From: an uncultured Acetatifactor sp. | GTDB lineage: Bacteria; Bacillota; Clostridia; Lachnospirales; Lachnospiraceae | Length of the DNA: 60,514 nt | Direction of reading: 5' to 3' | NCBI GenBank assembly: GCA_934394815.1 | Contig: CAKRRD010000013.1 | Coordinates: 1-60,514, forward strand | Part shown: positions 1 through 44,637 of the stretch, piece by piece | How the letters are laid out: every line of letters begins with the position of its first letter | Position numbering within the stretch: position 1 is the stretch's first letter | Program-made: the position numbers and the translations under genes | Notes under the pieces: model-generated | Told to the model about the DNA's origin: nothing | The model's input: the letters and a program-made list of their open reading frames with translations, nothing else | Database searches by the model: none

Positions 1-2
1 AC

Positions 3-185
3 ATGACATTTGAAGATTCACAAATAAATGAAGCTATTTGTTCTTATCTAAATTGTAAACAACAGATGGATTTAATTGCCTATGAGGATAATGATAAAGC
101 TGTGATTGAACAGCAAAAAGATTTTTATGATGATAAGATTAACAGATTGCTCTTATTTAACGAATGTATTAAAAAAATCCGCTAA
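3..185 (+). CDS. Small hypothetical protein, possibly partial at its 5' end
   Basis: This is a 60-residue open frame, acidic and Lys/Asn-rich, ending at an Ile-Arg before the stop. I do not recognise a family. The first ATG lies at the window edge, so it may be an internal Met of a longer protein. A strong terminator overlaps the stop codon, which supports real transcription on the plus strand. It is more AT-rich than the genes from position 342 on, so it may be cargo at the end of an integrated element. No function is proposed. Confidence 0.4.
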   Translation: MTFEDSQINEAICSYLNCKQQMDLIAYEDNDKAVIEQQKDFYDDKINRLLLFNECIKKIR

Positions 186-199
186 ATTGCGGATTTTTT
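172..199 (+). terminator. Rho-independent terminator after the left-edge ORF
   Basis: An 11-bp perfect stem (172-182 with 189-199) has a 6-nt loop and an A run on one side and a T run on the other, so it could work in both directions. It sits on the stop codon of the small left-edge ORF. Confidence 0.7.
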
Positions 200-341
200 C
201 TTTGCTAGGACTCTATTATAATACTTCTCTTTACATATCCTGAGTAGTTTATCCCCTACTCAAATAGCTTTGGTAAATCGTTGGTAAAAATCTACTGTAA
301 CATCCCCAAAACACTGTAAAATCAAGTATTTTTAATCAAGG
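200..341. other. Non-coding junction with short direct and inverted repeats
   Basis: There is no gene here. The stretch holds a hairpin (TGAGTAG at 241-247 with CTACTCA at 256-262) and two closely spaced copies of TTGGTAAA (270-277 and 281-288). A truncated gene ends at 342 just beyond it. Short arm-like repeats next to a broken gene resemble the end of an integrated element, but no integrase is in the window, so this is inference only. Confidence 0.3.
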
Positions 342-26431: not shown

Positions 26432-26739
26432 AAAAAAGCCCGCCCCTTTTTTCAAAAGGACGAGCTTAATCCACTCGTGTTACCACCTAATGTTCCCGCC
26501 AGACTCACATCTGACAGCTCAGTAAGTATCTATCAATACTCCGGCCGATATCGGTGCCTGCCGTCCTGATCTACTTGTTCGGGATCCGTGGACCCTTCCC
26601 TTTCCACCGGCTGCTCCGGGATGTATTCCTGCTCTGCTTCTGTGCGCCTCTCACCTGCCGGCTGCTCTCTGTCAGAAGTGGGGGAACAGTACTTCTTCCC
26701 TTCATTGCATTCTTCTTATAATATGTTTACGCTGAACAT
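26432..26739 (-). promoter_or_regulatory. T-box riboswitch of tyrS (tyrosine-specific)
   Basis: The leader has the T-box core TAGGTGGTAACACG (on the minus strand around 26472-26492), a terminator of 10 bp with G-U pairs (26435-26467) followed by a T6 run, and a long stem I. The specifier loop shows GAATACATCC with the Tyr codon TAC at 26623-26625. Uncharged tRNA-Tyr pairs with the specifier and with the T-box bulge, which stabilises the antiterminator and raises tyrS expression. Confidence 0.9.
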
Positions 26740-40176: not shown

Positions 40177-40722
40177 TTATTGATGTTGTAATATGCCAAA
40201 GCTCTCCAAGGGCCAGATCCGTAACCAGGCTTTTCCGATAATATTCTCCCGCTTAATATTGCCTACCATATCCGTGCGGCTGTCGCTGGAGTTGTTACGA
40301 TTATCACCCATGACAAAATATTCATCCTCTCCCAATACAATAGGATCCGCCGCCCGGCCGATGGTCTCCGGCTTTATAACTTCCATTCCGTAGGATTCTT
40401 CCAGTTTTTCCCCGTTAATATAGATGCTTCCGTCTTCTTCGATCTGTATGGTCTCTCCCGGCAGTCCGATGATACGCTTGATATAATAAGTATTGTCCTG
40501 ATACTGAAACGGGAACACAACGATATCAAACCGTTCCGGATCATGAAACCGATAACTCAATTTATCTACGATCAGATTATCTCCGTTATGCAGGGTATTC
40601 TCCATGGAAGCGCCTTCCACTTCCGTACGCTGTCCCACAAAAGTAATCACCAGCCATACAGCTCCCAGCACACACAGCAGATAGATAGCCGTGCTTAATA
40701 ATTCCTTCATTACTCTGTTCAT
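40177..40722 (-). CDS. lepB: Signal peptidase I (first of two)
   Basis: The 181-residue type I signal peptidase has a single N-terminal membrane helix (about 8-28) and the Ser-Lys dyad: EGASMENTL (Ser about 39) and YYIKRIIGLPGE (Lys about 82), plus GDNRNNSSDSR near 139. It cuts signal peptides on the outer face. The gene lies 4 bp after rbgA. A second, distinct lepB is on the other side of rbgA. Confidence 0.95.
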   Translation of the reverse strand: MNRVMKELLSTAIYLLCVLGAVWLVITFVGQRTEVEGASMENTLHNGDNLIVDKLSYRFHDPERFDIVVFPFQYQDNTYYIKRIIGLPGETIQIEEDGSIYINGEKLEESYGMEVIKPETIGRAADPIVLGEDEYFVMGDNRNNSSDSRTDMVGNIKRENIIGKAWLRIWPLESFGILQHQ

Positions 40723-41589: not shown

Positions 41590-42165
41590 CTATTTGATAA
41601 AACCGATGCCATCCGTTCCGGAGCTTAAGTGGAACCAGGCCTTTCCTATCATATCGCTTTCCTCCACCGGTCCGATATTGGCCGATCTGCTGTCTTCACT
41701 GTTATTGGGATTATCTCCGATGCAAAAATACTCTTTATTCCCCAATATGATCTCATTCTCCGCAATGCCGGGATCCAGGATCCGTTCCGTCACCCACTTG
41801 CTTTCCTGTCCATTGACGTACAACGTTCCGTCTGCGATCCTTACCTTATCCCCCGGTCCTGCAACAACACGTTTGACATAGTAATGGGAATTCTCATTGC
41901 CGTTTGGCAGAAATGCTACAACGTCTCCCGCCTTGGGGGAAGATAACACATACAGGAAGCGGTTGATAAATATCTGCTGTCCGTTCTCCAGTGTCGGTTC
42001 CATGGACATGCCCACAACCCTGGTGGATTTGCCAAGAAAAATCACTACCACCGCAGCCAGAAAAACAGACAGGGCAATGCCGAAGATCCAGTTAAAAATC
42101 TCCCGGAGCAGTTCCCGGCTGATCTTTTTCTTCTTTTTATAAAAACTCAGTCCTTTATTTCTCAA
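41590..42165 (-). CDS. lepB: Signal peptidase I (second of two)
   Basis: The 191-residue type I signal peptidase starts with a basic stretch, a membrane helix (about 25-46) and the dyad Ser in VGMSMEPTL (about 55) and Lys in YYVKRVVAGPGD (about 98). It ends with GDNPNNSEDSR and AWFHLSSG. It is clearly diverged from the other lepB copy two genes away, so this is an old duplication rather than a recent one. First gene after the rplS terminator with its own promoter. Confidence 0.95.
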   Translation of the reverse strand: MRNKGLSFYKKKKKISRELLREIFNWIFGIALSVFLAAVVVIFLGKSTRVVGMSMEPTLENGQQIFINRFLYVLSSPKAGDVVAFLPNGNENSHYYVKRVVAGPGDKVRIADGTLYVNGQESKWVTERILDPGIAENEIILGNKEYFCIGDNPNNSEDSRSANIGPVEESDMIGKAWFHLSSGTDGIGFIK

Positions 42166-42282: not shown

Positions 42283-42630
42283 TTATTTAACTAATTCCTT
42301 AACCTTTGCCTTCTTACCAACACGATCTCTTAAGTAATTCAGCTTAGCACGTCTTACTTTACCTTTTCTTACAACTTCGATCTTCTCTACGTTGGGAGAA
42401 TGTAAAGGCCAAGTCTTCTCTACGCCGATACCGTTGGAAGTCTTTCTAACAGTGAAAGTCTCTCTGTTGCTGCCGCCCTGTCTCTTCAGTACAACACCTT
42501 CGAATACCTGGATTCTCTCACGGTTACCCTCTTTGATCTTGCCGTATACCTTAACGGTATCGCCGACTTCAAACTGATCAACGGCTGCTTTTAACTGTTC
42601 TGCTTCGATCTCTTTGATAATGTTACTCAT
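42283..42630 (-). CDS. rplS: 50S ribosomal protein L19
   Basis: The 115-residue protein has the full L19 pattern: [86 protein letters not shown] lies about 8 nt before the ATG. It has its own promoter and an approximately 80-nt leader, and ends at a terminator, so it can be expressed apart from trmD. Confidence 0.98.
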
Positions 42631-42745: not shown

Positions 42746-44128
42746 TTATCTGTAAAGCCACCAGATCACCGGCTCCGACAGATTCAGTCCCAGGTTCTCC
42801 TGCAGCTGGATAGAAGCCTCATTTCCATCCACAATGTGCGCGTATGGAACAAAGCCCTGCTCTCTCTGCCGGTTGATCAGATAACTTTCCAGGGATGCCG
42901 CCAGTCCCTGTCTGCGGTATGCATCTTCCACATACAGCATTCCCATACTGCCGTCATCGTGACTGCCGATAAATCCGCAGAGCATTCCTTCAATATAAAC
43001 ACCGAACACAGCTCCTGCACCGATTCTCTCCCGGACATATTCCTCAGAGCCAAGATGATAATGTTCCGTCACATAAGGGATCTGTTCCTCTGTCAGCTGT
43101 CGGATATCCTTATGCTTCACCGGGAGCGGTTCCCCTCTGGTATAGCAGGCCTGGGAACACAGCATGCTGCCATGATATCCCAAAGCTTCACTGATCCGGT
43201 CATTCCAGCGGTCTGTCACAGTCACCATACTATGTTCCCTGACTCCTGTCGGAATCAGGGGAAGCATTTTCTCCAGATGTTCCTCATCCTCTGCATTCAG
43301 CATGGCATTGCCGATCCCGGGCAGATAGATCAGTACATTTTTTCCTTCTGCATAGAGGACTTCTCCCCATCCTCTGGCCAGTGTCTCCATCATATGAATG
43401 TAGATACGTTTCTTTGAAGAAAGTTTTTTGATTACCCGCTGTTTTTCCTGATATTTGGCGTAAAGATCCGGACGACGTTCTTCCGTCCGTCTCGCGGACT
43501 GTTCCAGACGCCAGACATTGATTTTTTTATGATTGCCCGACAGAAGCACCTCCGGTACCTTCTTCCCGTGCCATTCCTCAGGGCGGGAATACTGGGGATA
43601 TTCCAGCAGATCATTATGGAAACTCTCCGTCTCAGCAGATTCGTCATTATTAAGCACTCCGGGCACCAGTCTCGCCACCGCGTCCACCACTACCATCGCT
43701 GCCAGTTCTCCGCCGGTAAGGACATAATCTCCAATGGAAACATAGTCGGTTACAATCTCTTCCAGAACTCTCTCATCAATTCCTTCGTAATGTCCGCAGA
43801 GCAGTACGAGTTCCTCCTCCCCGGACAGTTCCTTCGCCTTTTTCTGGGTAAAGGGTGTTCCCTGAGGAGTCAGATAGACACAACGCACGTTCCTGTCTCC
43901 GGCCACCGCCCGGTATGCGTCATACACCGGCTGTGCCTGCATCAGCATTCCGGCACCGCCGCCATAAGTATAATCGTCCACTTTTCCATGCTTATCCTGT
44001 GTGTAGTCCCGGATATTCACCGCATCAATGGAAATCAGTTCTTTCTCCGCCGCCCGGCCTAAGATACTGGTCGCCAGTCCCTGCTGTACCATCTCCGGGA
44101 ACAGGGTCAGAATATGAAACTTCATCAT
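42746..44128 (-). CDS. trmD: tRNA (guanine37-N1)-methyltransferase TrmD fused to a GNAT acetyltransferase domain
   Basis: The 460-residue protein has two parts in one open frame. Residues 1-240 are a complete SPOUT TrmD with the SAM-knot motifs CGHYEGIDERV (111-121) and SIGDYVLTGGELAAM (131-145), which methylates G37 of tRNAs. Residues 241-460 form a GNAT-like domain: the acetyl-CoA loop VEDAYRRQGLA at 400-410 and a C-terminal GNEASIQLQENLGL motif of FR47-like acetyltransferases. TrmD is normally about 240-250 residues, so the C-terminal half is an extra enzyme. It overlaps rimM by the 4-nt ATGA and is upstream of rplS. The acetyl acceptor is unknown. Confidence 0.92.
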   Translation of the reverse strand: MMKFHILTLFPEMVQQGLATSILGRAAEKELISIDAVNIRDYTQDKHGKVDDYTYGGGAGMLMQAQPVYDAYRAVAGDRNVRCVYLTPQGTPFTQKKAKELSGEEELVLLCGHYEGIDERVLEEIVTDYVSIGDYVLTGGELAAMVVVDAVARLVPGVLNNDESAETESFHNDLLEYPQYSRPEEWHGKKVPEVLLSGNHKKINVWRLEQSARRTEERRPDLYAKYQEKQRVIKKLSSKKRIYIHMMETLARGWGEVLYAEGKNVLIYLPGIGNAMLNAEDEEHLEKMLPLIPTGVREHSMVTVTDRWNDRISEALGYHGSMLCSQACYTRGEPLPVKHKDIRQLTEEQIPYVTEHYHLGSEEYVRERIGAGAVFGVYIEGMLCGFIGSHDDGSMGMLYVEDAYRRQGLAASLESYLINRQREQGFVPYAHIVDGNEASIQLQENLGLNLSEPVIWWLYR

Positions 44129-44637
44129 AAGTCAAGCAGTCCTTCCAGTACATGTACCTGCATCGTGCCGTTTTCCACGTCTACGTTCAGGATACACTGT
44201 TTGATGGCCGGTAGCAGCAGGCTCCTGCCGTCTGCCATTTCCACCTCATAAACATCATTAGCCCCGGTCTCGATCACATCTTTTACCGTGCCTAATTCTT
44301 TGCCGTCCTCATCCTGTACCTTCAGGCCGATCAGGTCCGCGATGAAGTACTCGTCTCTTTGCAGGCGCACCGCATTTTTGCGGGTCACATACAGGCTCTT
44401 CTGACGGTATTTTTCTATATCATTTATGTTGTCCAGTCCTTTGAATTTCAGAATGACAAACTGCTTAAAGAACTTGACACCTTCTATTTCCAGATTTAAT
44501 TTTTCCCTGCCGGTGTCCAGAATGACTTCCTTTAATCTGCGGAATCTTCTGGGATCATCCGTGGTAGGATATACCTTTACTTCCCCTCTCACCCCATGGG
44601 TGGAGGTGATAATACCGACCTGTAACAGATCTTCCAT
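44125..44637 (-). CDS. rimM: Ribosome maturation factor RimM
   Basis: The 170-residue protein has the RimM N-domain (LLQVGIITSTHGVRGEVKVYPTTDDPRRF) and a PRC-barrel C-domain (DEYFIADLIGLKVQDEDGKELGTV). It binds S19 during 30S maturation. Conserved order rimM-trmD with a 4-nt overlap. A terminator-like hairpin lies between it and khpA upstream, so expression may be partly separate. Confidence 0.97.
   Translation of the reverse strand: MEDLLQVGIITSTHGVRGEVKVYPTTDDPRRFRRLKEVILDTGREKLNLEIEGVKFFKQFVILKFKGLDNINDIEKYRQKSLYVTRKNAVRLQRDEYFIADLIGLKVQDEDGKELGTVKDVIETGANDVYEVEMADGRSLLLPAIKQCILNVDVENGTMQVHVLEGLLDL

Follow-up and report, generated by a model that had tools for sequence, protein, structure and literature searches.

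A conserved fusion of TrmD to a predicted two-lobed GNAT acyltransferase in Lachnospiraceae

The window analysed here, 60,514 nucleotides of contig CAKRRD010000013.1 from an uncultured Acetatifactor sp., contains a trmD gene that continues in a single frame into a GNAT domain. This TrmD-GNAT fusion is genuine and conserved. The explanation that we favour, with moderate confidence, is that it encodes a bifunctional protein, TrmD plus a predicted accessory N-acyltransferase, most simply joined once, and kept by selection. The observations behind it are the architecture, the predicted fold, the conservation of the coenzyme A (CoA) loop, purifying selection, the existence of free-standing and otherwise fused relatives, and losses of the domain. 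From the sequences we infer that the GNAT half is catalytically active, and a working accessory N-acyltransferase is its most likely identity. Residues from about 246 to 460 would fold separately as a complete two-lobed GNAT of the GLYAT/FR47 fold, bind acetyl-CoA or another acyl-CoA and pass the acyl group to an amine. Within Lachnospiraceae, and in the simplest case on a single occasion, a free-standing GNAT gene would have been attached to trmD at its 3' end; in the Acetatifactor group, selection would since have preserved the fusion. The acyltransferase would be accessory to TrmD, as it is missing from many Lachnospiraceae and as some fused lineages retain TrmD after losing the CoA-binding lobe.

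The initial annotation placed the frame correctly and omitted its strand, which is minus (Table 1). Its claim of a complete TrmD holds: residues 2-230 align to positions 1-228 of the 233 of TIGR00088 with 320.8 bits (cut-off 195), and this part matches the solved TrmD chain 3ky7 with E 1.8e-74. Judging from its family, the segment 1-230 presumably works as a standard TrmD, methylating tRNA at G37. The residue at the xxSF catalytic position, which we take to correspond to Asp169 of E. coli TrmD, is Glu in 48 of 55 unique fused proteins (the motif was unrecognised in the other seven). These 55 proteins are the conservation set used throughout, and the excised loci described below are not among them. 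As the non-fused loci have Glu as well (40/40), this residue is not specific to the fusion, and we rejected the possibility that the fusion altered the catalytic Asp of TrmD.

The GNAT lobe begins straight after the C-terminal helix of TrmD, in a stretch (residues 220-251) predicted as one helix. Pfam FR47 covers residues 381-452 at 38.6 bits (cut-off 22.1), Acetyltransf_1 covers 352-447, and RRQGLA (405-410) has the Q/RxxGxG/A form of a GNAT CoA loop. In the structure model the C-terminal half has a GNAT fold, and among the families listed by the fold search it matches a two-lobed GLYAT-type GNAT over 1..231 of the model, with the active lobe C-terminal as in GLYAT. The annotation had reported 220 extra residues ending in a GNAT domain. 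The domain and its loop are there, yet the extent was understated: the N-lobe (about 246-341), which alignment A3 shows to be common to the fusion and its free-standing relatives, is also GNAT. On the model, the about 215 residues after TrmD are a second, full two-lobed GLYAT/FR47-type unit. The absence of a GNAT fold after residue 240, named beforehand as fatal to the claim, is thus not what the model and the fold match predict. A sequencing error or a lost stop codon between two genes is ruled out, since the identical frame occurs in many independent genomes. Within residues 216-275 the only possible start codons are 246 and 247, and no Shine-Dalgarno sequence was seen before either.

Table 1. 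Coordinates of the fusion gene, its parts and its immediate neighbours in the window.
Feature	Position	Strand	Evidence
trmD::GNAT fusion gene	42746..44128	-	single unbroken frame, ATG start, 460 residues (list of open reading frames)
TrmD part, residues 1-230	43439..44128	-	TIGR00088 320.8 bits; NF000648 323.6 bits; TrmD chain 3ky7
Joining helix, residues 220-251	43376..43471	-	predicted as a single helix between TrmD and GNAT
GNAT N-lobe, residues about 246-341	43106..43393	-	alignment A3, structure model, fold match
Catalytic C-terminal GNAT lobe (predicted), residues 342-460	42749..43105	-	Pfam, model, fold match, alignment
Pyrophosphate (CoA) loop RRQGLA, residues 405-410	42899..42916	-	sequence
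His390, candidate active-site residue	42959..42961	-	residue conservation
Tyr399	42932..42934	-	residue comparison, fused proteins vs non-TrmD relatives
His431	42836..42838	-	residue comparison, fused proteins vs non-TrmD relatives
rimM, upstream neighbour	44125..44637	-	overlaps the trmD start; TIGR02273 165.1 bits
rplS (L19), downstream neighbour	42283..42630	-	TIGR01024 153.3 bits

A search with residues 245-460 returned 104 proteins, 90 of which carry the TrmD domain in precomputed Pfam assignments. Four of the 104 look chimeric (P0022, P0032, P0033 and P0040) and were excluded from alignments and partner counts. A scan of genome contigs seeded with five aligned GNAT cores found 40 loci, all with GNAT and TrmD in one frame (40/40) and labelled as Lachnospiraceae, its genera or, once, Bacillota. 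They include the complete genome of Lachnospiraceae bacterium GAM79 and Acetatifactor muris DSM 23669. In the genus that contains GAM79 and A. muris, 93 of 101 sampled genomes have a TrmD match and 91 of these a GNAT match in the same frame, the remaining two (G471 and G411) being cut by contig ends. Three of the 91 (G402, G430 and G457) show only a recognisable N-lobe, and in another (G423) the contig ends inside the GNAT. At family level, TrmD was found in 385 of 397 sampled genomes and the TrmD-GNAT frame in at least 16. Of 391 genomes sampled across the class, 20 yielded a relative at E <= 1e-15; in G001, G026 and G202, which the family sample also includes, that relative is fused to TrmD. 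Database entries for the fused proteins, where named, are simply called TrmD. Ten metagenome proteins without a TrmD domain (P0005, P0010, P0013, P0014, P0015, P0016, P0017, P0018, P0019 and P0024) share one linker junction, which is either a real rearrangement or a repeated assembly chimera. The first ~88 residues of P0005 resemble the start of a 696-residue open reading frame of GAM79 (49% identity), by eye a metal-ATPase N-terminus.

Relative to TrmD as the tRNA m1G37 methyltransferase, residues 2-230 are the same and the about 215 extra residues form a second fold. We take PDB entry 8b1n to be another such case, the TrmD-Tm1570 fusion of Calditerrivibrio nitroreducens. According to the accessible parts of PMC11187310 and PMC1829167, that protein likewise carries a whole second domain C-terminal to TrmD, which is a SPOUT knot (PF09936) there and a GNAT here. 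Hence the statement that TrmD is normally stand-alone needs qualifying. Exceptions are found within Lachnospiraceae too: there, TrmD also occurs with a C-terminal HD domain (L162), with a flavodoxin-like stretch (by eye) followed by a 4Fe-4S ferredoxin (L163, and L164 alike by eye), and with a tail lacking a Pfam match (L161, and L157 and L160 alike by eye). In this family the C-terminus of TrmD appears to be especially prone to fusion. As the annotation had supposed, no description of the TrmD-GNAT fusion, and none of its function, was found in searches of the open-access literature; none is named in the accessible parts of PMC1829167, PMC5372735, PMC9508554, PMC11187310, PMC11184937, PMC1282579 and PMC10962704.

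The GNAT is not confined to TrmD. With a NUDIX-GNAT relative as query we retrieved 63 proteins: 54 with no other listed domain (229-240 residues), five fused to NUDIX (for example L064 / L086:8336-9589), three to TrmD and one to dihydrofolate reductase (P0151). At L136:937-2517 the same GNAT lies between a pyroglutamyl peptidase and the DNA-binding domain of O6-methylguanine-DNA methyltransferase. Because it occurs free-standing and in NUDIX, dihydrofolate reductase, pyroglutamyl peptidase and TrmD contexts, this GNAT is a module joined to different housekeeping enzymes. No recurring neighbour that could hint at a substrate was seen by eye in seven free-standing or NUDIX-fused loci (L086-L092); a signal-peptidase match adjoins once (L089). 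A separate GNAT gene adjoining trmD, as expected before fusion, had no A3 match at E <= 1e-3 in 40 non-fused loci. In genome G166 one contig opens with a partial GNAT shortly ahead of rnhB, and trmD is cut off by the end of another contig.

Both lobes are under purifying selection. In 15 close pairs, some of which share a member, the ratio of nonsynonymous to synonymous substitution rates (dN/dS) is 0-0.17 in the catalytic lobe and 0.02-0.10 in TrmD; in the N-lobe it is 0.07-0.31 (13 pairs with finite dS). R405 is found in 54 of the 55 fused proteins and G408 in 52, and 42 have H390, a basic residue or Gln at 405, G408 and N436 together. His390 is present in 48/55 fused proteins and in all 42 non-TrmD relatives. 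Other positions separate the two sets: residue 399 is Glu in 37/42 non-TrmD relatives and Tyr or Phe in 46/55 fused proteins, and residue 431 is Gln in 40/42 of the former and His in 34/55 of the latter. Because these two positions differ, the fused enzyme probably has an altered substrate or donor pocket. Mapped by an offset from the CoA loop, whose position in GLYAT we assume, GLYAT His263 falls near 431, Glu226 on Ser394 (Ser in 47/55) and Arg228 on Gly396 (Gly in 53/55). In the accessible part of PMC12509317, GLYAT catalysis relies on Glu226-His263 and glycine is held by Arg228. Since the Glu226 and Arg228 positions are Ser and Gly, we infer that an amine substrate would not be held here the way GLYAT holds glycine.

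Identity between the GNAT unit and GLYAT itself (7pk0/7pk1, likewise from PMC12509317) is 15%. Drosophila CG14615, of the FR47 family (1sqh), has no TrmD part, and its entry is named hypothetical protein. The accessible part of PMC12219266 describes HisAT/NAT16, likewise a double GNAT with one active lobe. That lobe is the N-terminal one, whereas the CoA loop of the fusion lies in the C-terminal lobe.

Several observations weigh against a single origin and a catalytic function kept by selection. In a phylogeny built from 78 GNAT regions, fusion to TrmD requires two changes: 33 of the 36 fused rows stand together with weak support (77/93), and L059, L070 and L077 lie outside that group. Constraining all 36 to one clade gave a slightly better tree, which the approximately unbiased test did not reject (p-AU 0.577). 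For the NUDIX fusions the same tree implies two changes, each imposed by starred branches. Scored on the TrmD tree, the fused and non-fused states need nine changes, and a single origin therefore requires many losses or transfers. That tree (85 rows, first ~186 residues) has 26 of its 82 inner branches starred, which makes gain and loss counts rough. Both trees are compatible with an early fusion that was lost repeatedly, and horizontal transfer may have contributed. As to catalysis, the Glu and Arg of GLYAT are not retained, the classical catalytic Glu being mostly the Ser noted above, and the chemistry is therefore unassigned. One or more of the four key residues are missing in 13 of the 55 proteins. 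Five loci (L148, L149, L150, L158 and L159) have lost in frame most of residues ~345-413, CoA loop included, while retaining the N-lobe and the last strands. The deletion is clean in L149 and L150 and leaves short remnants in L148 and L158. L155 has kept its length and lost the loop; with it, these loci amount to four changes among the fused rows of the TrmD tree. Activity is therefore not needed everywhere. Because five loci excised the CoA loop and L155 lost it, GNAT activity would be dispensable in some lineages, the site being apparently maintained in most of those examined.

Such losses could mean that the GNAT is a hitch-hiking domain in decay, which stays open as the end of an important gene and has little function left. 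The five excised loci and several degenerate ones fit this, as do the plain TrmD rows nested among fused rows on the weakly resolved TrmD tree. We nevertheless regard it as unlikely: dN/dS is well below 1 in both lobes, and retention in the genus sample is near-universal. The lobe could instead be an acetyl-CoA sensor, binding acetyl-CoA without turnover and tuning the activity or stability of TrmD. Conservation of the CoA loop while the classical catalytic residues are absent or changed would suit a sensor, as would the one helix that links the domains. This too seems improbable, because the free-standing relatives lack a partner domain to regulate in cis and the excised loci retain TrmD without the loop.

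The annotation had proposed that the acetyltransferase modifies tRNA, an amino acid near it or a ribosomal protein. Enzymes that are fused often share a substrate, and the GNAT lobe directly continues the TrmD helix. TrmD could bring tRNAs to a lobe that acetylates a base, a modified nucleoside or a charged amino acid. The accessible part of PMC10962704 offers a precedent, the acetylation of 3-(3-amino-3-carboxypropyl)uridine (acp3U) in tRNA by AcpA of Vibrio cholerae (likened here by function). We consider a tRNA substrate rather improbable, as the same GNAT family is mostly free-standing or fused to NUDIX, dihydrofolate reductase or pyroglutamyl peptidase, which share no tRNA with it, and as the lobe was lost in several lineages. 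Acetylated acp3U in particular is an unlikely product, because the DTW family (PF03942), which we take to be the acp3U synthase from the TapT-DTW link, had no match in 10/10 fused genomes searched (the E. coli control was positive). Among the tRNA routes this result bears on that one.

The next gene, rplS, encodes ribosomal protein L19, and the lobe could acetylate the N-terminus of L19 or of another ribosomal protein. Residue 2 of L19 is Ser in 55/71 fused vs 5/26 non-fused loci (some genomes counted twice), and in 15/22 fused vs 5/31 other rows of the TrmD tree. Asn2 is found in 20/26 non-fused loci and in 4/4 excised loci where L19 was found. In the 37 fused proteins whose locus includes L19, Ser2 accompanies the combination of an aromatic residue at 399 and His431 in 22/23 cases (the other has Val), vs 6/14 of the rest, a pattern that lies within one clade. 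Shared ancestry, however, confounds the signal: residue 2 is Asn in the fused lineages that lie outside the main clade, and the comparison reduces to two independent pairs (p = 1), which do not uphold the raw Ser/Asn difference. The shared occurrence of Ser2 and the aromatic399/His431 pattern in one clade is thus a coincidence of kinship or a lead, not evidence. Moreover, rplS lies <=700 bp downstream in 29 of 40 named fused loci, farther in one, and was not found in ten (in six of these, 6 kb of sequence past trmD could be searched); it also follows trmD within 300 bp in 19/40 non-fused loci. The suggestion of L19 as substrate is therefore not supported, and we judge acetylation of a ribosomal protein very unlikely.

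The gene order around the fusion is ylxM, ffh, rpsP, a KH protein gene and rimM upstream, and rplS, lepB, rbgA/ylqF, lepB and rnhB downstream, all above their NCBIfam cut-offs. Counting short contigs too, rimM lies upstream in every one of the 40 fused loci, the KH gene in 37 of them, rpsP in 36 and ffh in 35; the non-fused loci contained RimM in three and S16 in none. The two signal peptidase I genes of the window (40177-40722 and 41590-42165, minus strand) flank rbgA/ylqF, as they do in all 25 fused loci that have rbgA and enough room. A T-box leader lies at 26453-26714 (minus strand, 100.8 bits).

TrmD is a drug target. It is essential in most bacteria, according to the accessible part of PMC10962704. 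In this clade it has a second conserved enzyme-like half, which any work on TrmD of gut Lachnospiraceae must take into account. Intact, degenerate, excised and absent versions of the domain all occur naturally and can serve as ready controls in the search for the substrate of the predicted acyltransferase. An unlikely extension of the bifunctional reading is that TrmD acts as a carrier, the fused lobe acylating either the exposed N-terminal Ser of L19 or, at some position different from acp3U, the tRNA bound by TrmD. If so, Acetatifactor-type gut bacteria would place an acetyl-CoA-dependent mark on decoding, and, with tRNA or a ribosomal protein as the target, decoding would be tied to the supply of acetyl-CoA. 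Should the mark lie elsewhere, the fusion would plainly exemplify an accessory enzyme carried along by an essential gene.
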